From Ruegeria sp. SCSIO 43209 (GTDB lineage Bacteria; Pseudomonadota; Alphaproteobacteria; Rhodobacterales; Rhodobacteraceae), in the NCBI RefSeq assembly GCF_019904295.1, contig NZ_CP065359.1:3160001-3224000 (forward strand): a stretch of 64,000 bases of DNA, in the 5' to 3' direction. Positions within the stretch are counted from its first letter, which is position 1; the number at the start of each line of letters is the position of its first letter. The position numbers and the translations under genes were made by a program. Of this stretch, positions 30,432 through 48,547 are shown one piece after another. Below the pieces are notes generated by a model that saw only the letters and a list, made by a program, of their open reading frames with translations, was not told the DNA's origin and searched no databases.

Positions 30432-30518
30432 GCCCAGGTGGCGGAATTGGTAGACGCGCTAGCTTCAGGTGCTAGTGTCCGTATGGACGTGGAGGTTCGA
30501 GTCCTCTCCTGGGCACCA
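30432..30518 (+). tRNA. tRNA-Leu(CAG)
   Basis: An 87-base class II tRNA with an encoded CCA end. The acceptor arms GCCCAGG and CCTGGGC pair fully. The anticodon stem CTAGC/GCTAG frames the loop TTCAGGT, so the anticodon is CAG and the tRNA reads CUG. A long variable arm follows, as expected for leucine. Its 3' 16 bases are duplicated at 48532-48547 and mark the island attachment site. Confidence 0.97.
30503..30518 (+). repeat. Attachment site at tRNA end (left island border)
   Basis: CCTCTCCTGGGCACCA, the 3' end of the tRNA-Leu gene, is repeated exactly at 48532-48547 beyond the integrase. Integration at this site keeps the tRNA intact. Confidence 0.9.
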
Positions 30519-31547: not shown

Positions 31548-33086
31548 ATGCTCACAGGCAACATCCGAAACCAGGTCGATCAGATATGGAATGCGTTCTG
31601 GTCAGGCGGGGTTTCCAATCCACTTTCCGTAATCGAACAGCTAACCTTCCTAATGTTCATTAAACGGCTCGACGACCTGCGTACCGTCGAAGAACGCAAG
31701 GCCGAGGATCTGGGCATTCCCATGGCGCGTCGCATCTTCCCGGAAGGCAAGGACGACAAGGGCGAGCCCTACGACAACCTGCGCTGGTCCCGCTTCAAGC
31801 ACTTTGAAGCGCGTGAGATGATGCGGATCGTGGATGAGCATGTCTTCCCCTTCCTCCGGCAGCTTGGTGAACAGGGCTCTTCCTATGGTACGCACATGAA
31901 GGATGCCCGTTTGGGCTTCTCCAACGCCAACCTGCTGGCCAAGGTTGTGCAGATGCTCGACGACATCCCCATGGACGACCGTGACACCAAGGGCGACGTC
32001 TACGAATACATGCTGGGTAAGATCGCCAGCGCGGGAACAAATGGTCAGTTCCGCACTCCAAGGCACATCATTGAGCTGATGGTTCACCTCATGGCGCCGA
32101 CGCCCACCGATACTATCTGTGACCCGGCGGCGGGTACCTGCGGCTTCCTCGTTGCAGCGGGCGAGTACCTACGCGACCACCACCCAGAGATGCTGCGCAA
32201 GAAGGAAAGCCGCGACCACTTCCATAACGATATGTTCCACGGGTTCGACTTCGATGCCACGATGCTGCGGATCGGCGCGATGAACATGACATAGCACGGT
32301 GTCGACAATGCGGATGTCTCGTACCGCGACAGCTTGGCTGAGGAGCATGGAGCGGACGCGGGTGCCTATTCCCTGATCCTCGCCAACCCGCCCTTTGCCG
32401 GGTCGCTCGACTATGACACGACTGCCAAGGACCTGCTGAAGATCGTCAAAACCAAGAAGACCGAGCTTCTGTTCATGGCGCTGTTCCTGCGTCTGCTGCG
32501 GACCGGCGGGCGCGCGGCAGTGGTTGTGCCGGACGGGGTGCTGTTTGGCTCGTCCAAGGCGCACAAGGACATCCGCCGCATGTTGGTGGAGGAACACAAG
32601 CTCGACGCCATCATCAAGCTTCCTTCGGGTGTCTTCAAACCTTACGCGGGTGTTTCCTGTGCCATCGTGGTTTTTACCAAGACCGGTGTGGGCGGAACCG
32701 AGGATGTCTGGTTCTACGACATGTCGGCCGACGGCTTCAGCCTTGATGACAAACGCACGCCGCTACTGGACGCTGAGAAGCTTGGCGTAAAACCTTCAGA
32801 GGTGCCGACAGAGGAAGAGCACGGCAAGAACAATCTGCCCGACATTCTGACGCGCTGGGCTGCTCTGGAAACCGAGACTGATCGCCCAAGGACTGCACAG
32901 AGCTTCTTGGTCAAAGCGTCAGAAATTGCTGCTACTGGGTCGTGGGATCTGAGCCTGAATCGGTACAAGGAGATTGAGCATGAGGATGTTGAACACGCTT
33001 CACCGGAAGAAATCATAGCTGATCTGCGTGCGCTGGAGGCCGAAATCTCCGACGGATTGGATAGGCTAGAAGGGATGCTAGGATGA
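31548..33086 (+). pseudogene. hsdM: Type I restriction methyltransferase subunit, amber-interrupted
   Basis: Adenine-specific DNA methyltransferase subunit of a type I system; full frame 512 codons. The HsdM N-terminal helical domain (MLTGNIRNQVDQIWNAFWSG) is followed by motif I, DPAAGTCGFLVAAGEYL, and the catalytic motif IV, LANPPFAG. At 32292-32294, within the conserved stretch MNMT-stop-HGVDN, a TAG codon interrupts the otherwise unbroken frame; relatives have a leucine there, so a single TTG-to-TAG change explains it. The first 248 residues keep SAM motif I but lack NPPF. Without readthrough no working methyltransferase is made. GAGG precedes the ATG, and the last four bases overlap hsdS (ATGA). 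Confidence 0.9.
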
Positions 33087-35104: not shown

Positions 35105-35468
35105 TTGTTTTTCTTCTGCCTGCCTATTAGCCTTTGATTTCACGGCTAAGTAACTGACAAGGTTAAGGTTGTCACTTGGTTTTTAATTGGCAAGAAGAGC
35201 GAAAATCCTATTTTCTTCGGCTGACAATGCCGGGTACAGAGGCGTCATTACTGTTCGATGTACCATCGTTCTCAACGTGTCCGGGGATCATATCGCCTTG
35301 TTTGTTGCTGCCGGCTGTACAATCACACAGCTCATGTTTTGAACTTATACGTTGTGGTTACCTGCCAGAGGTTCATGAGAGCGTGGAGAAAGCAGGCCGA
35401 ACAATGCGCTCACGGGTTGATCGCAATCTGAGACGCTTCTACGTTGCTGTTATTGTTTGGAATCTCTC
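35105..35468. other. Divergent promoter region before hsdR
   Basis: About 360 bases between the starts of the membrane-protein gene and hsdR. No supported gene; it should contain both promoters. No clear inverted repeat was found. Confidence 0.5.
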
Positions 35469-38400
35469 ATGACTCAGTTTGCATTTCTCGCCGATGACTT
35501 CCCCGCTTTGCACAAGCATGCCGCCAAGGCGGAGACCCATACACTGTCCGATCCGCGCGGGGCGTGTTTCTGGGCTCGCCTGACGCTGGAGACAGCGCTC
35601 AAGTGGCTTTACCAGAAAGATCCGGCGCTGCGCAGCACTTACAACAACACGCTAGCCGCTATGATTGCCGAACCGAGCCTTGAAGCGCTGACCGGCCCCG
35701 CCATCGTCACCAAGGCGCGCTACATCAAGGATCAGGGCAACCGGGCCGCACATGACTCAGGCAAACCGCTGAGTGCCCACGACGCCACCGCCTGCGTGCG
35801 TGAGCTGTTCCACGTGTGTTACTGGATCGCCCGAACCTACGCCAAGACTACACGTCCTGATCCAGCTTTGACCTTTGACGTGAAACGTCTTGAAAAGTCG
35901 CTGACTATTACCGCCAGCACCGTCGCCCAGATCCAGAAGATCGAAGGCGACATTAAGGCTGAACGCAAACGCGCTGAAGAGGCAGAGGAGGCGTTGCGCG
36001 CTTCTGAGGAGGGACGCGAAGAGCTAGACCGGGAACTGGCTCGGGTCCGTGCCGAGATCGTCGCGTTGAGAAAGGCCAACCAAAGTGTCCAGGACACTCA
36101 CGACTACAATGAGGCCGAAACGCGCGACAGCTTCATCGATCTGCTTTTGGCTGAGGCGGGCTGGCCCTTAGATCAGGAGCGCGATCGCGAGTTTCCTGTG
36201 AAGGGCATGCCAAACGAGAGCGGTGACGGTTTCGTCGACTACGTTCTTTGGGGCGATGACGGAAAGCCTCTGGCACTGGTCGAGGCAAAACGCACCAAAA
36301 AGGACAGTCGGACAGGGCAACAGCAGGCGAAGCTTTACGCTGACTGCCTTGAAGCCGCATACGGGCGGCGACCGGTGATTTTCACTACAAATGGTTATGA
36401 GCATTGGGTCTGGGACGACTTGGCTTACCCACCGCGAGAGTTATCCGGTTTCCTGAAGAAAGATGAGCTACAGCTACTTCATCAAAGGCGAACCAACGTA
36501 CGCGCCTTGTCGAGCGTTGATATCGACGTAGATATCGCGGGTCGCCATTATCAGCAGCGCGCAATTCGGCGCGTTGGGGAGGCATTCGAAAAACACGCCC
36601 AGCGCAAAGCGCTTTTGGTTATGGCAACAGGAAGCGGTAAGACGCGAACAGTGATCGCTCTCATCGACCAACTAATGAGAGCCAACCGCGTCAAACGTGT
36701 TCTATTTCTGGCCGACCGTATTGCACTGGTTAAACAGGCGAATAGCGCTTTCAAAGTACACCTGCCTGCAACACCTTGCGCCAATCTGCTGGAGCGCCAC
36801 GACCCAAAGAAAAACGATCACTCAGGTGCTCGTGTTTGCCTTTCAACCTACCCCACTATGATGGGGCTGATTGAAGAGTCGAAGAACGGCGAGAAGCGCT
36901 ATGGCCCCGGTCACTTTGATCTGATCGTAATCGATGAGGCGCACCGCTCAGTTTATCGAAAGTATCGGGCAATTTTCAGCTATTTTGACAGCCTGCTGGT
37001 GGGACTAACAGCCACCCCACGCGACGAAATTGACAAAGATACCTACTCGCTGTTTGGGCTTGAGAAGGGTGTTCCGACTGATGCCTACGATCTCGATGAT
37101 GCAGTCGCGGACGGCTATCTGGTTCCGCCGACAACCATATCTGTTCCGCTGAAATTCCAACGAGAAGGAATTGCATACGATCAGTTGAGTGATGAAGAGA
37201 AGGAAGCTTGGGACGCCATTGAATGGGATGAAGAAGGTACCCAGCGCGACCGCGTTGAAAGCGCCGATTTGAACAAGTGGCTATTCAACGTGGACACCGT
37301 AGACAAGGTGCTTGAGCACTTAATGCGAAACGGGATCAAGGTAGCTGGCGGTGATAGGCTCGGCAAAACCATTATCTTCGCCAAGAATAGCAAACATGCT
37401 CAATTCATCGTGGACCGTTTCAATGAGAACTACCCGTACTACAAGGGTGAGTTTGCTAAACTGATAGACTACAGCGTTTCCTACGCTCAAACCCTGATCG
37501 ACGACTTCTCGGAAGCAGAAAAAGCGCCTCACATAGCCGTTTCGGTGGACATGCTGGATACTGGGATTGATGTGCCTGAGGTTGTCAATCTTGTTTTCTT
37601 TAAAATCGTGCGTTCAAGAACAAAATTCTAGCAGATGGTAGGAAGAGGCACCCGTCTGTGCCCGGACCTTTTTGGTCCAGGCGAGGATAAGCAAGCTTTT
37701 GTGATCTTCGATTTCTGCCAGAATCTGGAGTTCTTCAAGGAAAACCCAAATCTGGCCGAGGGCGCCAGCGCAAAACCTATCGGTGAACGACTATTTGCGG
37801 CACGAGTGGAGCTTATTGAAGCTCTAGCTAATTACGAAAACGCCCATGAGCAGCTAATTGACTCAACTAAAACCCGCCTCCGCGACGAAGTTATGGGTAT
37901 GCCGCTCGATAACTTCATCGTTCGAGCCAAGCGCCGAAGCGTTGAAAGGTTTAGGGACTCTGCGAACTGGTCAGATCTGACTTTGGACGAGCGAATGGCA
38001 CTTTTGGAAGACGTCGCCGGTCTTCCCTCTGCCTATGAAGACGGTAGCCTTCCCGCGAAACAATTTGATCTCTTGATCCTCAGCACTCAACTTGAACTCC
38101 TGAAACAAGAGGGCGGGTTTGCACGCCTGCAGTCCCGTATAATTAGCTACGCTTCAGGGTTGGAGGAGTTGTCCAATGTACCCCTTGTTGCAAAAGAGTT
38201 GGAATTGATTTTAGAAATTCAATCCGACTGTTTTTGGGAAGACATTACTCCTGAAACTCTTGAGATGGTGCGTCGCCGCTTGCGTCATCTGGCCGAGCTC
38301 ATCAAGCCAACCGAGAGGAAGACTGTAATTACAAACTTTGAAGACGAGATCGGCGAAGGCAGCGCTATGACGATGCCGGATGTCGGCAGCGGCGTAGATA

Positions 38401-38864
38401 AAGCACTGTTCAAGATGAAGGTTCGACGCTTTTTGGAACGACATCGTGACCACATTACCCTAATAAAGGTACATCGCGGAGAGCCCCTTACATCGCAGGA
38501 TATCGACGAATTAGAACGGATTTTAATCGATCAGGAAATCGCTGATGAAAAGTTGATCGCGGAGTTAGGCGATGACGGAGGACTTGGGCGTTTTCTTCGT
38601 TCGCTGACCGGTTTAGATCGAGCAGCTGCCAAAGAAGCGTTTAGCGCCTTCGTTTCGCGACATCAGCTTAACGCAGATCAAACCGACTTCCTTGACCTAA
38701 TCGTGGACAGTTTGACCGAAAGTGGGATCGTTGATCCAGCATCGTTTTATGAGAGCCCTTATACAGACTTCGACGATTTGGGCATTGCGGGCTTGTTCAA
38801 TCGAGATCAAACACAAGAGATCATCGAAATCGTTCGTGGCTTAAACGATGCAGCAGCCGCCTAA
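35469..38864 (+). pseudogene. hsdR: Type I restriction endonuclease subunit, amber-interrupted
   Basis: DNA-translocating restriction subunit; full frame 1131 codons. Domains in order: DUF4145-like N-terminus (1-130), an Arg/Glu-rich coiled coil (about 140-205), a PD-(D/E)xK nuclease with VDYVLWGDDGKPLALVEAKRT, and an SF2 motor with Walker A ATGSGKTRTVIAL, IDEAHRS and LTATPRDE. At 37629-37631 a TAG stops the frame in RTKF-stop-QMVGRGTRL, where relatives have tryptophan (TGG to TAG). The 720-residue first fragment lacks helicase motif VI with its arginine finger. An ATG follows the stop after one codon (TAG CAG ATG), so the 409-residue rest might be made by reinitiation. The ribosome binding site of the ATG at 35469 is weak. 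Confidence 0.9.
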
Positions 38865-38946: not shown

Positions 38947-39678
38947 TTAGCACTTTTGCAATTTCCCAATCACTATCACAGTCACGTTGTCATACCCTCC
39001 AGAGTTTAATGCTGCGGAAACAAGAGCTTGCGCCGGATGGGTGCGGTTTTGACTTAGAATTTTCAGTATTTCCTCGCTTCCAATCATATCGGTTAGGCCG
39101 TCGGAGCACAGTAAAATACGGTCGCCCGGCGCCAGTCTTTCACTTTGCACATGGGGAAATATTGGTGCTCGGTGAGTAGTTCCACCGAGCGACTGAGTAA
39201 GTCGATGGCTTCGTGTTCTGTGGTCGCCACCCATACCTATTGTGTGATCAGTGCTGGTTTGAACCAGATCAGTGTCTCTCACGATGTAAGCGCGACTATC
39301 TCCCAAATTGAAAAACAATCCAACTTCATCGCGAAATGCGATTCCAACAATTGTGCTTCCCATACCCGGTCTACCAAGAGGCGCGAACATTGCTTGAAAT
39401 ACTTTGCGGTTGACGCGTTCAAGGATTTCGCTGGCAGAAGTTTTACCTTCGATTTGATCAGCCATTTTGATCAGTTCCGAGATGGTGATCTCACTAGCAA
39501 TTTCGCCTGCTTGGTGGCCCCCCATCCCATCGGCAACCGCCGCGATCCAACGATTGCCGCGTAGATCTACAGTCCACGCACCGTCACCCCCATCAGCGGC
39601 CCAGGTTCCAGCGCAACAATTGTCTTCGTTTCTGGAACGAACCACGCCAGTATGTGTAGCTATCCATGCCGTTCTCAT
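38947..39678 (-). CDS. PP2C-type protein phosphatase
   Basis: Metal-dependent Ser/Thr phosphatase of 243 residues. All PP2C motifs are visible: RSRNEDN near residue 14, VADGMGGHQAGEIAS near 48, GMGSTIVG, NLGDSRAY, LCSDGLTD and a final GGYDNVTVIV. It is a soluble stand-alone domain and should be catalytically active. It is the last gene of a three-gene operon, seven bases after the PLD-like gene. The likely target is the kinase-helicase encoded first in the operon, or the kinase's own substrates (inference). A kinase paired with its phosphatase suggests a phosphorylation-controlled defence switch. Confidence 0.93.
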   Translation of the reverse strand: MRTAWIATHTGVVRSRNEDNCCAGTWAADGGDGAWTVDLRGNRWIAAVADGMGGHQAGEIASEITISELIKMADQIEGKTSASEILERVNRKVFQAMFAPLGRPGMGSTIVGIAFRDEVGLFFNLGDSRAYIVRDTDLVQTSTDHTIGMGGDHRTRSHRLTQSLGGTTHRAPIFPHVQSERLAPGDRILLCSDGLTDMIGSEEILKILSQNRTHPAQALVSAALNSGGYDNVTVIVIGKLQKC

Positions 39679-39685
39679 ACTAGTT

Positions 39686-41143
39686 TCATGTTCTCGTTCT
39701 GGATTTGTGGGAAATCAACGCGTCTCTAATTTGTTGTACATTTTGCGGTGATCTTGTTACCAGGCCATCCAATTTGATGAAGCCAGAGCGCCTGTTAACT
39801 TCGCCAAGAAATGGGCGATTGGCAACAACCGCCAACTCATTGTCTTGGATAAGAAAGAACAAGCTGCGTCTTGAGTGTCTACCTATCGAAAGTTTTTTCT
39901 GATCTGCTCGTCTGACGAGTTCAAACATCGGGTCAAACTTGTCTCCTTTGAGTGGTTCGGTTGGAGTTCTGAGAACTGTTTCGACATGAACATCGACGCC
40001 CGACTCGCAAAGCCGATCTATCTCTCGGAGCCGAAATCCATTCAATAGCAACGGTTGAACACCCGCGCTCGTGATTATTAGTGAGTGCGTAGCGTTGGCG
40101 ATGGCTTCATCGAGCAAATCTTGCTGCTCGTAACATGCCAGCGGCCTAGTCGTCATAGACAAAAGAGAGTGTTCCGCGACTTTTAACTTTTCGTTAGCTT
40201 CTTGAAGTGCCTTTGCGGCTGCAGAAGATCTTTTTTTGTATTGGGCAGCGGGCAAAATTGAGCGAACCTCACTCTCTGCCGCTAAGTGTTGGCGTCTTGC
40301 CTCTACCAGTTCATTGGGATCAGGGAAGGATTTAACCATTTCCCGACCCACAACACGTTGAAGGTATTGCCGAGTTCGACCCTCCGAAACTGCTTTGATT
40401 AAACCCATTTTTTTTGGTCCGCCTCGTTCAGCAAAAGCTCTCTCATGCTGCTCTGATAGCTTACCATCAATTGCGAAGGCGATTTGGATTTCGGAACCGC
40501 TGTTTGATGCAAACACGAGCGCAACAGCTTCTCGAAACACGTTACTGCGGCGAGAGACACGCTTTAACGCCAAAACAGTTCTACGAAAATCTTCGCCGCC
40601 CTGTCTCCGAATGACACGACTGATTTCAGGAATGGACAATTCTGAAATTGATGGTGGCTCGGCTGGGTAGGGGCGGATTTCAATTGCCCCAAAACTTCTA
40701 AGCTCAGAGGCTCGTCTCACACTAGAACTGACTAAGCGTACAGGGAATCGGCGGATTCCGTCATAGTCGACAACAAGCATTTCTTCTCTGAGTTCTTCTT
40801 GGCGTTCATTGGCCAAACGTTTTTCGCCCAGTTCGGTTAACTTGAAAGCGTCGTTGCCGGAATGGCCCATTTGCCTGGATAAAAGGCCATCGGAGACCAG
40901 GACGTTCACAGCCCCTTGTACGATTTCCGGCCCTAAGCCCAATAGGCGGGCCACTTCGGCTTCTTGTCCATCTGCCAGTGCCAATCCCCTCATTACAAAT
41001 TCTTGAATGGTCGGCAGTGCTCGTTGGGAGGTGGTGACTGCCTCGATCGTAAGGCGAAATACCGGCAGGCCAACTTCAGCATAGTCAACTAGCGTAAATC
41101 CGTCTCTAAACTGGTGCAGTCGGGCGATCTCCTCTGGACTCAT
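39686..41143 (-). CDS. Winged-helix protein with degenerate PLD-like domain
   Basis: Protein of 485 residues. A winged helix-turn-helix lies at about residues 33-110 (TSQRALPTIQEFVMRG ... YKLTEL-like end). A charged coiled coil follows at about 280-330. The C-terminal 150 residues have the fold pattern of a phospholipase-D half (SLIITSAGVQPLLL, then SLFFLIQDNELAVVANRPFLG). The HxKxxxxD catalytic signature is not seen, since the position reads RRSLFFLIQD, so it is probably non-catalytic or strongly diverged. The start is the ATG that overlaps the upstream stop (ATGA), showing tight coupling to the kinase-helicase. Likely a DNA- or nucleic-acid-binding partner (inference). Confidence 0.75.
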   Translation of the reverse strand: MSPEEIARLHQFRDGFTLVDYAEVGLPVFRLTIEAVTTSQRALPTIQEFVMRGLALADGQEAEVARLLGLGPEIVQGAVNVLVSDGLLSRQMGHSGNDAFKLTELGEKRLANERQEELREEMLVVDYDGIRRFPVRLVSSSVRRASELRSFGAIEIRPYPAEPPSISELSIPEISRVIRRQGGEDFRRTVLALKRVSRRSNVFREAVALVFASNSGSEIQIAFAIDGKLSEQHERAFAERGGPKKMGLIKAVSEGRTRQYLQRVVGREMVKSFPDPNELVEARRQHLAAESEVRSILPAAQYKKRSSAAAKALQEANEKLKVAEHSLLSMTTRPLACYEQQDLLDEAIANATHSLIITSAGVQPLLLNGFRLREIDRLCESGVDVHVETVLRTPTEPLKGDKFDPMFELVRRADQKKLSIGRHSRRSLFFLIQDNELAVVANRPFLGEVNRRSGFIKLDGLVTRSPQNVQQIRDALISHKSRTRT

Positions 41144-44100
41144 GACAAGGTCTCCATTGCGCAATCCTCTGGGTTGCGGTCCATGTAGTCGATAACGGCC
41201 TCGAAAGGATTGTTGCCATGAATCGATCGACAGAAACTTTGGTCACCAACAATCAACAAGGCGCTTTTTCCTCGAGAAAGCGCCACGTTTAGTCGCGGAC
41301 GTTCTTTGAGAAATCCAAGTCGCCCGCGCTTGTTTGAGCGTACGACCGAGTAAATGCATACATCAGCTTGGCGTCCTTGGAATGCATCTACGCTATTGCA
41401 TGACACCTCAAGGTTTGGCCACTCAGCAGCACCTTGCATCACCATTTTGTCAAGCAATCCGACCTGAGCAGTGTAACCTGAAATTACAGCGACCGAAATA
41501 GACTGATGTTGAATGTTTGCCACAAATTGAAGCGTTTGCAATCGCTCTCGCACTGCAGCGACTTCGGTTGGATTGCAATAGGTTGGGCCTTGTTCACGCT
41601 CGAAGGGGTTTTCAAGTGCATGAGTAGAATACCACATCACAGGTTTCGGAAAGGCGAGCTCAAGCTTTAGCCCGTGTGTCTTGATGGGGCTGTTAAGCTG
41701 ACCGTCATAAAAACACTCACTGACCAGATTTCCAATTGGGCGCACCATACGGTACTGGTTGCTGAGCGCTGCACGACAACCTTCCGGCAAACCATCAGGC
41801 TTTTCCAGTAGACGATCCAACAGGGTCGCTTTCACCTCCTTGTCGTCAAATTCACTTCGTAGTTCGTCCCCCAGATCTTCAAAGAAGGGCGGTAATTGCT
41901 TCGGATCACCAACAACAATCCAACGCTGGCTACGCGCCATTGGAATCAGGATTTCTGTCGCTGTCGCTTTAGATGCTTCGTCAACAATACACAGGTCGTA
42001 GGAGACTTCGCCCATCCCCTTTACTCCAGCAATGCCTACGCAGGTACCGGCAATAACTTCCGCAGAGGACAATAAGGCAGCGTTGAAGTCAGGTGATCGC
42101 CCAACACGTAAACTCCACTCCTCAAGCAGGGACAATCGTTCGCGGCATTCTTCAGCCGCCGGGCCGGAATTGAGGAAATGCTCAGCCCAGTCTGTCAGAT
42201 CGCGAACGTCGCAAGATGTTGCGAGTTCTTCAGCGTAACCACCGATTTCCTTAAGTTGATCCCTTACTCGACGTTCTTCCTTGCGGAGTACACCAAGCTC
42301 TCGTTCTGCCACACCAATCTCGTTGTCCAATTGGGTTGTCTGTTCGGCAATATCGTCATCTTCGACGACTGGGTGATCGTCACCATCCGCGGGAGTTTCA
42401 ACGTCTTTACGTTCTTTTGTCAGATCAGAAATGGACGCCGCAAGCTCTTGCTGTCGTCCTAGGATTTGAATTAGACGTTCCACCATTATTCCAATTTCGA
42501 CCATTCCTCGGTCGACACCATTTTTTTCGGCCCAATCGGACATTTCCTCCTCTGCCAATCGACGTACTTCACCAATCCAAGACTCCACACGCTTTTCGAG
42601 GAGCAGTTCTTTACTTTCATCGGATATCTTCGGTTCGTCCACTCGCCCGATCCGAATTAGCTTCATCTCAGGATCAAGTGTTGAAACACGCTCCAGAACA
42701 TTATCCAAAGCGATGTGCGTTTGTGATGAAAGTAGAATGCGATGTCCTGGGTTTCTTCGAAGCCACTGAACGACGATTTCGCTAATTAGCTTAGTTTTTC
42801 CCGTGCCAGGAGGGCCCTCAATAGCAAGAATATCCTCTACACCAAGCGCTTTAGAGAGTATCTCAATTTTTTCGTCATCGAGATCGCTGTCCGTTGGATC
42901 GACATTGGAAACAGGTGATGTCGGCGTTGCGTTTCCCGGTTCGAGAATTATCGACTTCAAGCGATTACTGACAGCTCGTCCAAATACTACTGAGTCAAGA
43001 GCATGAGTTTGGTGCGAGAGCGCTCGCTGTGCGAGCAGTGTATTGAGTATTATCTCGCCGCGCTGCGGCAGTTTGTTAGGATTTCCGTAAGTAACGTCCA
43101 TTGTAACCTGATTGAACGAAACTGCGCTAACCACGCCAATCACTCTGCCGTTTGCTAGCTGTATTAAACGGTCTTGACCAACCAGTTCCTCTTTCTGGGC
43201 TATGTCAGTAGTAAATACTACTTTCTCCCCGGATACGTGACGGTTCAAATAGGTGATTGCATTTGCACGATTGGCTTCAAGGTCTGCCCTGTCACGAAGA
43301 TAGCTCCTCCACGCCCGAAAAACACGTTCTGTGGCCCGAGAGTCTCGTTCCGCTTGGATAGCATCTCGCTCAGATTTTGCTTCAACCAAAAGCATCTCGA
43401 GAGCGTTGCCTGCCTGTCTCGTACCAGCCGGGCGATTGAAGCTTATTCGCAGGCGACTATTTGTTCCCGCTTCACGCAAATCTGAAGCGTGTCCCGCACC
43501 AATTTCAATTGCTTTCGTGATGTGAAGCAGTTCTTTGTGTTTGCCAGCTACTGAAGCCTCAAAGCACCAAGTTGCTCCAACAATTTTAACTTCGCAGGGG
43601 TCTCCGTCACTCTCCCTTAGGTTAAGAGAGCAAACTTCCTCGAGCTCCTCATGAACGAACCGTTCAAGAGCCGCTCGCCCTTCGAAACCAAGTCTTTTTT
43701 CGAGGTAAGGTAGTACATTACCCGCCATTTCGATGTGAATTGTAACAAAGCCAGAGTTGGTCTTCTCGTGATCCAGCATCGCATGTTCCAGTTGTTCTCG
43801 CAGAACAGCTGCCAAGCGCGGTCGATCCGACACTTCCTCACTTAGACATCGATCCAATATTGGGCGAATCTCACGTGGAAGCACAGCTTCTTGCTGTGCA
43901 ATCCGAATGTCATCGTCGCTAGTGATAATTCGACCTGCTACGCAGGAAATAGCAACTGCAGCAAAGGCGAAACAATCTCGGCTAAAAATATAGTTCTCAT
44001 CGTCTGGAGTAGATGGTGTGTAGCCGGGAGTGTAGTCGAAGCGAAAAGTTAGCCCCTTAATCGCCCAGTTTCCACCATTGTCTAAGAGCTTGGCGATCCC

Positions 44101-44574
44101 ATAATCCGCTAGTTTTGGTTTTCTGTCAGAAGTTACGAGAATGTTTTTTGGCTTAATGTCCCGATGAGCGATTCGTTGCTTCTGCCCGAATACAATCGCA
44201 TCCAGTAGAGGTGAACCATAACGATCCCAGAACACAGTCCACGGCATCGCGCCTTCGTCTACAATGGCATCTTCAAGGTTGTTTTCAATCCACTCAAGTA
44301 CAAGATACCAATTGCCTTCGTCGTCTTGGTCTACCTCAACAAGCTCCACAATGTTGGGATGAACAAGGTTTTGGAGCGTGCGGACCTCGCGGTGAAAGCC
44401 TTCCTTAGAACGCTCATCATCTGGACCAAACTTAACCCGCTTGATCGCAACAAAATTTCCCGTGTTCTGGTCAAGTGCCTTTATGACCGATGCTTGGGCA
44501 CCAAATCGCTCAATGCTAGTCAGCACATAGCGGCCACCGAGCGAATTGATAACAGAACTATCTTCGTTCGCCAT
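41140..44574 (-). CDS. Ser/Thr protein kinase fused to SF1 helicase
   Basis: Large fusion of 1144 residues. Residues 15-260 form a protein kinase with VAIKRV (Lys45), HRDIKPKNIL (137-146) and DYG (157-159), all needed residues being present. A linker region of about 300 residues follows. Residues 580-1110 form an SF1 helicase of the UPF1/Dna2 type: GPPGTGKT (587-594), VDEAS (864-868), GDPKQLPP (889-896), QYRM (940-943), AFQGRQAD (1064-1071) and NVALSRGK (1096-1103). A long acidic coiled-coil insertion (about 650-800) sits inside the helicase core. Its stop overlaps the PLD-like gene (ATGA). It probably senses nucleic acid by helicase action and signals by phosphorylation (inference). Confidence 0.92.
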   Translation of the reverse strand: MANEDSSVINSLGGRYVLTSIERFGAQASVIKALDQNTGNFVAIKRVKFGPDDERSKEGFHREVRTLQNLVHPNIVELVEVDQDDEGNWYLVLEWIENNLEDAIVDEGAMPWTVFWDRYGSPLLDAIVFGQKQRIAHRDIKPKNILVTSDRKPKLADYGIAKLLDNGGNWAIKGLTFRFDYTPGYTPSTPDDENYIFSRDCFAFAAVAISCVAGRIITSDDDIRIAQQEAVLPREIRPILDRCLSEEVSDRPRLAAVLREQLEHAMLDHEKTNSGFVTIHIEMAGNVLPYLEKRLGFEGRAALERFVHEELEEVCSLNLRESDGDPCEVKIVGATWCFEASVAGKHKELLHITKAIEIGAGHASDLREAGTNSRLRISFNRPAGTRQAGNALEMLLVEAKSERDAIQAERDSRATERVFRAWRSYLRDRADLEANRANAITYLNRHVSGEKVVFTTDIAQKEELVGQDRLIQLANGRVIGVVSAVSFNQVTMDVTYGNPNKLPQRGEIILNTLLAQRALSHQTHALDSVVFGRAVSNRLKSIILEPGNATPTSPVSNVDPTDSDLDDEKIEILSKALGVEDILAIEGPPGTGKTKLISEIVVQWLRRNPGHRILLSSQTHIALDNVLERVSTLDPEMKLIRIGRVDEPKISDESKELLLEKRVESWIGEVRRLAEEEMSDWAEKNGVDRGMVEIGIMVERLIQILGRQQELAASISDLTKERKDVETPADGDDHPVVEDDDIAEQTTQLDNEIGVAERELGVLRKEERRVRDQLKEIGGYAEELATSCDVRDLTDWAEHFLNSGPAAEECRERLSLLEEWSLRVGRSPDFNAALLSSAEVIAGTCVGIAGVKGMGEVSYDLCIVDEASKATATEILIPMARSQRWIVVGDPKQLPPFFEDLGDELRSEFDDKEVKATLLDRLLEKPDGLPEGCRAALSNQYRMVRPIGNLVSECFYDGQLNSPIKTHGLKLELAFPKPVMWYSTHALENPFEREQGPTYCNPTEVAAVRERLQTLQFVANIQHQSISVAVISGYTAQVGLLDKMVMQGAAEWPNLEVSCNSVDAFQGRQADVCIYSVVRSNKRGRLGFLKERPRLNVALSRGKSALLIVGDQSFCRSIHGNNPFEAVIDYMDRNPEDCAMETLS

Positions 44575-46534: not shown

Positions 46535-47185
46535 TTAGGCTACGCCGATCAGAGCCTTTTCTTGAACGCTCAGTTTCGTGACTTTTCCTTTAAAATTGGG
46601 AGTAAAATGCTCCGGAACGCGCCACGGGTTCCATTTCAAACTTCCTTGCGCAGAGACCCAGTCTAAAAGTTCCTCTAAGGCTTTGGCTTTCGAAAGGAAC
46701 TCGTCGAACTTCTTCGGGTCATTTTCAAAGGTCTGAAACCTTGGGCCGTCTGATCGATAAGCGGCTTCAAGGTGGCAAGTATTGCGAAACCGGCTGAAGG
46801 CCTTTCTCACTTGTTCAGAGACCGAGCTTTCCAATCTGGCGCTTTGTTCCTCCAGCAATGGCCGTGTAATCAGCTTTACCGCTTTGCCCAAAGTTGGCGT
46901 TACGCCGTTGAGATAGAGTCGCGCGATCTCGCGCACCACCATTGCAGCGTATCTACGCTCGGACATGTTAGATCTTACGAACTTTCTTTCGATTATTGCG
47001 TCCAAAGGGTTCAATTCAATGCTACTGTTATCCGAGATTTCTGACATGTGCCGGTAGGCCTCCCAAATGGTGCTCTCTTTTTCGTCGTCTGGAGCGCCCA
47101 TTCGAACCAAAACAAAGAGATCTGGGCGAGATATCCATTTGCCGTTTCCGTTGTACAAGGGAAGATAACGACGATCCTGATTCAT
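46535..47185 (-). CDS. Hypothetical protein coupled to integrase
   Basis: Protein of 216 residues, charged and mostly helical, with no family that I recognise. The ATG at 47185 overlaps the integrase stop (ATGA), so it is translated as a partner of the integrase; the frame extends upstream to 47371 only over the integrase gene. Features include a C-terminal stretch SLKWNPWRVPEHF. Functions for such genes include excision control, but this is only inference from position. Confidence 0.65.
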   Translation of the reverse strand: MNQDRRYLPLYNGNGKWISRPDLFVLVRMGAPDDEKESTIWEAYRHMSEISDNSSIELNPLDAIIERKFVRSNMSERRYAAMVVREIARLYLNGVTPTLGKAVKLITRPLLEEQSARLESSVSEQVRKAFSRFRNTCHLEAAYRSDGPRFQTFENDPKKFDEFLSKAKALEELLDWVSAQGSLKWNPWRVPEHFTPNFKGKVTKLSVQEKALIGVA

Positions 47186-48369
47186 GCTGTGGCCAATTTT
47201 ATGATTGTATCTGTATTGCCAGTGAGGTGGGACGCCCAGCGCTCCAGCAGCACACGACGTTGGTCGAGAAAGTCGGTTCGACGATAGGCGCGTTCGACAG
47301 AGCTGCCCACAACGTGACCAAGCATAGTTTCTGCAACTTCGTGACGCGCATCGGTTGCCTCCGCCAACCACACGCGGAGACTTGAACGAAATCCATGCGG
47401 ACGGGCGCTCATGCCACGACGCTCCATCAATCTCGACATCGTGGCGTCCGAGATCACCCCTTTTCGAATACTCGGAAACAGATAGCCATCGCGAGCATGT
47501 CGCCGCGCGTCTCCAAGAACATGAAGCGCTTCATTCGAAAGGGGTACACGGAACTCAGCAGTAGCGCCCTCACGTCCTTTCATCTGCTCTGCCGGAATGG
47601 TCCAGACATCACCGTCGATCTGCTCTTCCCTCAAGTACCGTATTGGCCGTGACCGTACCCCGGTCAAAATTAGAAGTTTCAGAGCAAGGTGTGTGACTGT
47701 ACCTTCGTCCAAGCTTTTGTAGAACTCAGGCACTTCACTCCAGGCAAGCGACGGAATGTTGGTGGTGGCCTTACGCGGTTTGCCAAGCAATGCACGTGCC
47801 TTCCTGGGGGCCTGCAAGTCAACATCAATGCCCAGCGCGGCTGCATGCTCCAGACAAATAGATGTCCGTGTCAACGCCTTCCGAGCAGTCTCGGCTTTCT
47901 CATGCCAGATAGGCGCAAGGCAATCCCGCAGATCGATCTGAGTAATTTCAGCAACCGGCACATGACCGAGTTTGGGTATGACGTGTAGTTCCAGCGGACT
48001 AAACCAACGCCCCGCCTTTCCGCCACCTCGCAATTCCGACTTCCGCGCTTCAAACGCATCCCGAGCGATGTCTCTAAACAGGTGCAAATTGCGCTGGGCT
48101 TCCACCCGCCGCTTCTGCCGCTCTCTAATCGGATCTAGGCCTTCTCGCAGTTCGCGCCGTGCAGCATCAGCAGATTCCCGGGCCTCCGCCAAGCCAACAT
48201 CCGGCCACCGCCCGAGGCCCATTTCCCGTCGTTTGCCGAAAACCGTCAGTCTAAGAACCCACTTACCGCTTTTGGAATCTGCCTTCACAAGCCAGAGCCC
48301 AGCGCCATCGCAGTGCTTTCCGCTCTCTAATGCAAGAACGCCGCGCGCGCTCAATTTGTTTTTCGCCAT
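47182..48369 (-). CDS. int: Tyrosine-type site-specific integrase
   Basis: Island integrase of 395 residues. The N-terminal arm-binding domain of the P4 type (DUF4102; DGAGLWLVKADSKSGKW and GKRREMGLGRWPDVGLAEAR in parts) is followed by a core-binding domain and the catalytic domain. In the catalytic part an arginine lies in ILTGVRSRPIRYL, HGFR at the second box, LGHVVGSS with the histidine, and VERAYRRTD with the nucleophilic tyrosine. P4-type integrases commonly use tRNA 3' ends, which agrees with the tRNA-Leu repeats. It lies about 160 bases from the right border. Confidence 0.95.
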   Translation of the reverse strand: MAKNKLSARGVLALESGKHCDGAGLWLVKADSKSGKWVLRLTVFGKRREMGLGRWPDVGLAEARESADAARRELREGLDPIRERQKRRVEAQRNLHLFRDIARDAFEARKSELRGGGKAGRWFSPLELHVIPKLGHVPVAEITQIDLRDCLAPIWHEKAETARKALTRTSICLEHAAALGIDVDLQAPRKARALLGKPRKATTNIPSLAWSEVPEFYKSLDEGTVTHLALKLLILTGVRSRPIRYLREEQIDGDVWTIPAEQMKGREGATAEFRVPLSNEALHVLGDARRHARDGYLFPSIRKGVISDATMSRLMERRGMSARPHGFRSSLRVWLAEATDARHEVAETMLGHVVGSSVERAYRRTDFLDQRRVLLERWASHLTGNTDTIIKLATA

Positions 48370-48531: not shown

Positions 48532-48547
48532 CCTCTCCTGGGCACCA
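48532..48547 (+). repeat. Right border repeat of the island
   Basis: CCTCTCCTGGGCACCA, an exact copy of the last 16 bases of tRNA-Leu(CAG). The partly matching bases just before it (TTTCAATG against GTTCGAGT) suggest the crossover lies inside this repeat. Confidence 0.9.

Follow-up and report, generated by a model that had tools for sequence, protein, structure and literature searches.

The stretch analysed here, which we call the window, is 64,000 nucleotides of Ruegeria sp. SCSIO 43209 (contig NZ_CP065359.1, positions 3,160,001 to 3,224,000). It carries a three-gene operon that we read as part of a branch of Mokosh type I, a named bacterial anti-phage system, carried here on a mobile island; the output of this branch would have shifted from nucleic-acid cleavage to protein phosphorylation. 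On the sequence comparisons below, we give this reading a probability of about 0.5. The branch differs from Mokosh type I in three ways: the PLD site of MkoB is lost, a PP2C phosphatase gene is linked to mkoB, and the MkoA kinase has DYG in place of DFG. The three open reading frames (ORFs) are on the minus strand at 44574-41140 (1144 aa), 41143-39686 (485 aa from its ATG) and 39678-38947 (243 aa). The mkoA/mkoB junction is an ATGA overlap (41143-41140), and the mkoB stop is separated from the PP2C ATG by seven bases (39685-39679); this is the operon as described in an earlier reading made from the letters alone (the sequence-only reading). Promoter and terminator scans gave nothing better than shuffle level. 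Its features are as follows.

41140..44574, minus strand: mkoA, fusion of a Ser/Thr kinase and a UPF1-type superfamily 1 (SF1) helicase, 1144 aa (PADLOC MkoA, Pfam)
43798..44502, minus strand: kinase domain, residues 25-259 (PF00069, Pkinase, E 1.6e-29)
44098..44106, minus strand: DYG motif, residues 157-159, where DFG is expected (alignment of MkoA)
41239..42882, minus strand: SF1 helicase core AAA_11/AAA_12, residues 565-1112 (Pfam)
39686..41143, minus strand: mkoB, winged helix, middle domain, linker and PLD-like domain without nuclease site, 485 aa (PADLOC MkoB, hhalign)
39734..40138, minus strand: PLD-like domain, residues about 336-470, active site lost (alignment, hhalign)
39842..39865, minus strand: place of the HxKx4D motif, residues 427-434, Asp alone remaining (alignment)
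38947..39678, minus strand: PP2C-type Ser/Thr phosphatase, 243 aa, third gene of the operon (NCBIfam NF033484, PDB 2cm1)

The membership in Mokosh rests on both of the first two proteins. The fusion protein matches the PADLOC model for MkoA (PDLC03920, E 3.4e-215), with residues 10-1141 of 1144 lying on positions 5-1108 of the 1112 in the profile, and the middle protein matches the model for MkoB (PDLC03922, E 2.6e-41). The same models are matched by MkoA of one further branch member and two canonical members, and by MkoB of two further branch members and six others; the third protein has a weak PADLOC match (PDC-M21C, 7e-05). The published description of Mokosh type I has separate genes for a COG1112 helicase and a PLD nuclease, to which a Ser/Thr kinase is added (PMC11672841; here and below, citations by PMC number refer to the available parts of those papers). 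In the operon, a Ser/Thr kinase is joined to a COG1112/UPF1-type helicase (PADLOC, Pfam and motif alignment), and a separate mkoB adjoins it, as the MkoB model and the ATGA overlap indicate. The order mkoA-mkoB, overlapping or a few bases apart, is that of canonical loci; the homology of MkoA is full length, and the profiles of branch and canonical MkoB align end to end (hhalign, 467 columns, probability 100%, E 2.2e-56). The intact HKD site of the PLD nuclease is not present in branch MkoB. Since the site is absent and the fold is kept by homology, we file the operon as a derived Mokosh variant and not as standard type I, and the branch is unrecognised as such in the literature searched. Judged from these alignments, descent from Mokosh is close to certain. 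The sequence-only reading had proposed an undescribed defence system and had itself said that a match to a named system would undo the proposal; PADLOC names MkoA and MkoB of Mokosh type I, and with that homology the claim falls. Mokosh type II (MkoC) has a related helicase part and differs in being described, in the available part of its source, as one gene that combines helicase and PLD. Five of the six non-branch MkoB tested match the PLD end of MkoC, and none of the three branch MkoB tested does.

Two features that the sequence-only reading did not remark on are the lack of a nuclease site in the PLD partner and the absence of the PP2C gene from 21 canonical kinase-type loci, which come from cyanobacteria, actinomycetes, one Phycisphaerae metagenome-assembled genome and Desulfosarcina. 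The C-terminal PLD half of canonical MkoB has a motif of the form HAKxLxxD...SFNW...E; the corresponding branch stretch is like xxFFLxxD...NRPF. Motif counts for branch MkoB were made on the 120 listed of 185 matches, the window included. The His, Lys, Asn and Glu of the PLD site are each found in none of these 120, and the Asp of HKD is found in 119, the remaining one being gapped. The canonical counts are H 19/21, K 20/21, D 21/21, N 20/21 and E 20/21, with the mkoB of L012 split in two ORFs, of which the last piece alone entered the count. The exceptions in the canonical group are the MkoB of Lentzea L021, without H, K, N or E, and that of M. marinum L109, without H. The sequence-only reading had called the middle protein a winged-helix, degenerate PLD-like protein, and this agrees with what is found. 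A Pfam scan of window MkoB returned no match, but the protein has a weak match to a MarR-like winged helix (best E 0.0027), and its residues 377-461 have a very weak one (E 0.25) to a viral envelope phospholipase, which we take to be of the PLD family. No Pfam nuclease or PLD match appeared in three branch MkoB scanned. The PLD fold of branch MkoB is inherited, judging from the end-to-end profile alignment.

The third protein of the window has PP2C_2 at residues 35-203 (Pfam), matches NCBIfam NF033484 at E 4.6e-44, which is below the cut-off of that model, and matches PstP (PDB 2cm1) at E 7.3e-24. Five Asp of the Stp1/PstP type are present (19, 50, 127, 193 and 230), which we take to be the metal site. 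The PP2C gene stands directly 3' of mkoB in 8/8 mkoB-bearing branch loci, namely the window, six plasmids and genome G1534. The six alphaproteobacterial plasmids (L003-L008, from Aminobacter, Microvirga, two Agrobacterium and two Sinorhizobium) have mkoA-mkoB-PP2C in the order of the window, with ends overlapping; four are typed as conjugative and two as non-mobilizable, and the set omits the duplicates or near-duplicates H4, H11, H16, H17 and H20-H22. The G1534 locus (L128) was located through its MkoA after the PP2C rule had been framed, and there too PP2C comes directly after mkoB. The co-occurrence check suggested by the sequence-only reading thus finds the same gene order elsewhere. A PP2C profile found nothing in the 21 canonical loci (0/21, over up to 6-7 kb on each side and less at contig ends, with short flanks in L012, L018, L021 and L110); the 21 include the near pairs L016/L023, L020/L108, L011/L109 and L110/L111.

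Outside the 21 are L024-L091, with other or more distant helicases. Among these, L026 and L027, each with an HKD protein encoded downstream, may be distant Mokosh; L074 and L076 each hold a PP2C ORF. Also outside are L019 (DYG) and L022 (DFG), in both of which mkoA is truncated and mkoB and PP2C are lacking, and L113 of genome G814, where a DFG MkoA is at the contig end and mkoB is not readable. Among the four Rhizobiaceae plasmid loci, L005, L006 and L007, but not L008, have a DUF3800 gene that follows the PP2C gene and overlaps it.

Plasmids often carry PP2C genes (243 records), and three other plasmid PP2C loci (H92, H93 and H104) have no MkoA annotated alongside. The PP2C as a chance neighbour is rejected on its position after mkoB in all the mkoB-bearing branch loci and on its co-evolution with MkoA. 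The distance matrices of 28 trios (mirror-tree) give rho of 0.95 for MkoA-MkoB, 0.83 for MkoA-PP2C and 0.83 for MkoB-PP2C, values reached by 0/999 permutations. The 28 trios are the six plasmids and 22 more joined through equal size of the longest contig among protein matches. This joining gave 35 MkoA-PP2C matches against 0.2 expected from a shifted-length control, and 48 of the 120 listed PP2C matches share a size with a listed MkoA or MkoB match; it draws on the best 120 matches per list and cannot show that a PP2C is absent.

Kinase and helicase catalytic residues are both conserved in MkoA. Pfam places Pkinase at residues 25-259 and AAA_11/AAA_12 (UPF1-type SF1) at 565-1112; the nearest solved structures are SMUBP-2 and UPF1/NAM7 for the helicase half and bacterial kinases, e.g., PknB, for the kinase half. 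The kinase catalytic residues of the window are all there (K45, E63, HRD137-139, N144 and D157). The VAIK Lys K45, the alpha-C Glu E63, HRD, N144 and the DxG D157 are kept in 112-115 of the 115 full-length listed branch MkoA, and Lys141 is replaced by Asn in 13 of the 115. The Tyr of DYG is found in 114 of the 115 and in 6/6 plasmid members, and Phe is found there in 21/21 canonical. In the helicase, Walker A G590/K593/T594 and Walker B D865/E866 are invariant across the 115 and the 21 sequences, and the ten helicase positions checked show a single departing residue, in one branch protein. The sequence-only reading holds up on these points, having described a complete kinase fused to a complete UPF1-type helicase and a full set of kinase and phosphatase catalytic residues.

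In an MkoA tree of 58 sequences, one branch divides the PP2C loci from the PP2C-free loci (SH-aLRT, a Shimodaira-Hasegawa-like approximate likelihood ratio test, 100; length 1.03); the tree is unrooted, was made by a quick method with long branches flagged, and leaves out G1534, G814 and L019. With a single separating branch, the PP2C association fits one event. The four Rhizobiaceae plasmid loci make one sub-branch. At the thresholds used, the system is rare in genomes. MkoA of this kind is found in 1/385 genomes of the class (the window's own) and in 2/349 of the phylum, namely the window's own and the DFG-type G814; the order of G814 gives 1/397, which is the query genome itself, and its family gives 2/394. 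Among 390 genomes of the window's order, MkoB-model matches better than 6.4e-16 occur, among the matches listed, in G621 and the window's genome only, and the weaker ones listed are mostly the PLD part alone. G621, which is of the same bacterial family, has a Mokosh-like pair (L122:7950-12025, G621:C17) that is the reverse of the window variant: its helicase ORF has no kinase, and its MkoB carries two HKD motifs. Just upstream of this pair, the contig comes to an end. A single-sequence scan of genome contigs gave 10 pattern matches and no relative; a scan of viral contigs gave at least eight weak matches, with no full MkoA among the matches listed; and 38 phage records had a match, none spanning 80% of MkoA. 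The mkoA of G1534 (L128:7983-11420) has one in-frame TAA, and the DYG-type mkoA of Bradyrhizobium L019 (L019:5962-8469) is truncated.

Since the motor and the kinase are kept, the cutting site is lost and an enzyme that would undo the kinase has been added, the simplest reading is that the kinase is the effector and PP2C its antidote. Millman et al. in 2022 reportedly found the PLD of MkoB to be the effector of canonical Mokosh and to be required for defence. We tentatively suggest an effector swap, at somewhat short of even odds, in which the PLD nuclease lost its activity and the role of toxin passed to a kinase gated by nucleic acid and restrained both by a PP2C antidote, itself acquired, and by a DYG brake; the result would be a helicase-triggered phosphorylation toxin-antitoxin. 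The ancestral state would be HKD with DFG, because HKD characterises the PLD family and canonical MkoB still has it, although the tree is unrooted; PP2C would be a gain. The winged helix and nuclease-less PLD fold of MkoB would bind nucleic acid and/or dock a substrate, and the UPF1-type helicase would engage phage-derived RNA or single-stranded DNA. This guess at the trigger is made because UPF1-like helicases work on RNA and single-stranded DNA (PMC11090510). Engagement would release the kinase onto host or phage proteins, or onto MkoA/MkoB; phosphorylation would halt phage growth, probably with growth arrest, and PP2C would reverse leaky phosphorylation as the antidote.

There are precedents for parts of this. 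KKP (kinase-kinase-phosphatase), a module of prophages, is a kinase toxin with a PP2C antitoxin that gives phage defence; its co-expressed kinases are toxic, rescue needs the catalytic motifs of the phosphatase, and toxicity is triggered by a T4 protein that binds the phosphatase (PMC11341870). A phage that inhibits PP2C may thereby set the system off here too, as in KKP. The LRRK2 kinase is held back by the Tyr of its DYG, and Tyr to Phe hyperactivates it (PMC6660771). By analogy only, the Tyr of DYG in MkoA may serve as a second brake, in the way that Y2018 does in LRRK2.

Several points weigh against the shift to phosphorylation. The APE motif is missing from most branch kinases in the scan used, a separate motif scan: it is present in 5/115 parsed branch kinases vs 20/20 parsed canonical ones (11/126 branch and 1/21 canonical kinases were unparsed). 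For this reason, we take the activity of the branch kinase to be likely and not certain. G1534 keeps DYG and APE, with HKD absent and PP2C present, and Bradyrhizobium L019 keeps DYG and APE; therefore, the loss of APE may have come later than the other branch changes. HKD is also lost without PP2C in the fetched DNA of Lentzea L021 and M. marinum L109, and thus nuclease loss alone does not imply PP2C. In L019, a ninth DYG locus, the fetched DNA shows no mkoB and no PP2C. The branch traits taken together fit a single origin, so that the 8/8 may be one evolutionary event. Finally, the kinase is already there in canonical Mokosh, and PP2C could merely be tuning it. As a separate observation, the MkoB of the M. 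marinum plasmid (L109:9387-11240) has Val for the HKD His and then an S1 RNA-binding domain, a possible independent change of output.

One rival reading is an ordinary Mokosh tuned by the phosphatase, which we think unlikely but worth keeping in view: MkoB would still be a nuclease through a different site, the kinase would license it and PP2C would reset it. The PLD-like half is indeed constrained, with E339, R373, D404/P405, D434, R443/P444, R452 and R464 at least 97% conserved in 117 sequences and the HKD Asp retained, and the conserved charged residues could make up such a site. However, H, K, N and E are missing from every listed branch MkoB, and the three scanned had no Pfam match to a nuclease or PLD. 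Somewhat more doubtful is the proposal that the PLD-like half senses nucleic acid or phosphopeptides, in a switch that signals to an effector encoded elsewhere, the operon being incomplete as a defence unit. The DUF3800 gene would suit that role in three Rhizobiaceae plasmid loci, all of one sub-branch, but no DUF3800 is annotated or found after PP2C in the window, L003, L004 or L008. Decay, with the nuclease lost and the operon no longer defending, is improbable. The in-frame TAG in each of the adjoining hsdM and hsdR, the TAA in G1534 mkoA and the truncated L019 mkoA without mkoB or PP2C would agree with it, but mkoA, mkoB and PP2C of the window are all full-length open frames, and we disfavour decay on the conservation of kinase, helicase and PP2C catalytic residues in listed members, down to 44% MkoA identity. 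A new system unrelated to Mokosh is hardly tenable, being refuted by the PADLOC matches and the end-to-end MkoB alignment, even though PP2C and the loss of the PLD site fall outside the available description of Mokosh (PMC11672841).

Other known systems share parts with the operon. KKP, likened here by description, has a Ser/Thr kinase opposed by a PP2C of the same gene cluster and acts against phage through kinase toxicity; it differs in its two kinases, with parts of CSD and FHA type, and the available description includes neither a helicase nor a PLD protein (PMC11341870). The KKP set of PfkA with CSD, PfkB and PP2C is not found in the operon, which has one kinase domain, helicase-fused, and no CSD match in its proteins. 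TerY-P triads and CoCoNuT type II/III-A place PP2C and a Ser/Thr kinase beside a UPF1-like helicase and a nuclease; CoCoNuTs join the helicase with TerY-P (VWA, PP2C and kinase), a parallel use of the same parts (PMC11090510). Among the 10 window proteins scanned, there is no match to VWA (TerY), McrB GTPase or zinc ribbon, and so the TerY-P combination of VWA, PP2C and kinase is lacking there; the other island ORFs were only read. The kinases of PD-T4-6, MAD6 and BREX PglW have related kinase domains but differ in that the match is confined to the kinase domain and is far below the MkoA score. For BREX, this is a weak PglW match, PglX and PglZ not having been searched for. The sequence-only reading had considered the layout unlike TerY-P and BREX PglW; the mkoA-mkoB part of it does match Mokosh type I.

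A literature search found nothing combining Mokosh, phosphatase and kinase, with thin coverage of subscription journals; one review mentions Mokosh and phosphatase once each in its available text (PMC10286901), and the available parts of the Mokosh-phage literature sampled give no role for the Mokosh kinase. A natural branch without the nuclease site but with kinase residues, helicase residues and a phosphatase isolates the kinase output and makes it testable, posing the question of whether kinase activity alone can stop a phage. It also suggests that PADLOC calls of "Mokosh" include loci unlikely to work through PLD cleavage, and, if the effector swap is true, a phosphorylation toxin-antitoxin goes under ordinary Mokosh in PADLOC.

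The operon lies inside a tRNA-Leu island of about 18.0 kb, with a 16-base identical repeat of the tRNA 3' end at both bounds.

30503..30518, plus strand: left boundary repeat, 3' end of tRNA-Leu CAG, putative attL
48532..48547, plus strand: right boundary repeat, putative attR
47182..48369, minus strand: island tyrosine integrase (Arm-DNA-bind_3, Phage_int_M and Phage_integrase, Pfam)

The end repeat and the integrase bear out the sequence-only description of a tRNA-Leu island beside a type I restriction system; an Rfam scan found tRNAs and nothing else. The type I restriction-modification system shares the island, hsdR being identified by Pfam and hsdM named from reading its sequence. Each has one in-frame TAG (hsdM 31548-33086, TAG at 32292-32294; hsdR 35457-38864, TAG at 37629-37631), and the system seems to be broken, provided that the TAGs are not due to sequencing error or overcome by suppression. 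On a Nostoc plasmid (L111:5977-15116), Mokosh stands shortly before DncV-like, E2-like and JAB-like genes, a CBASS-type set.

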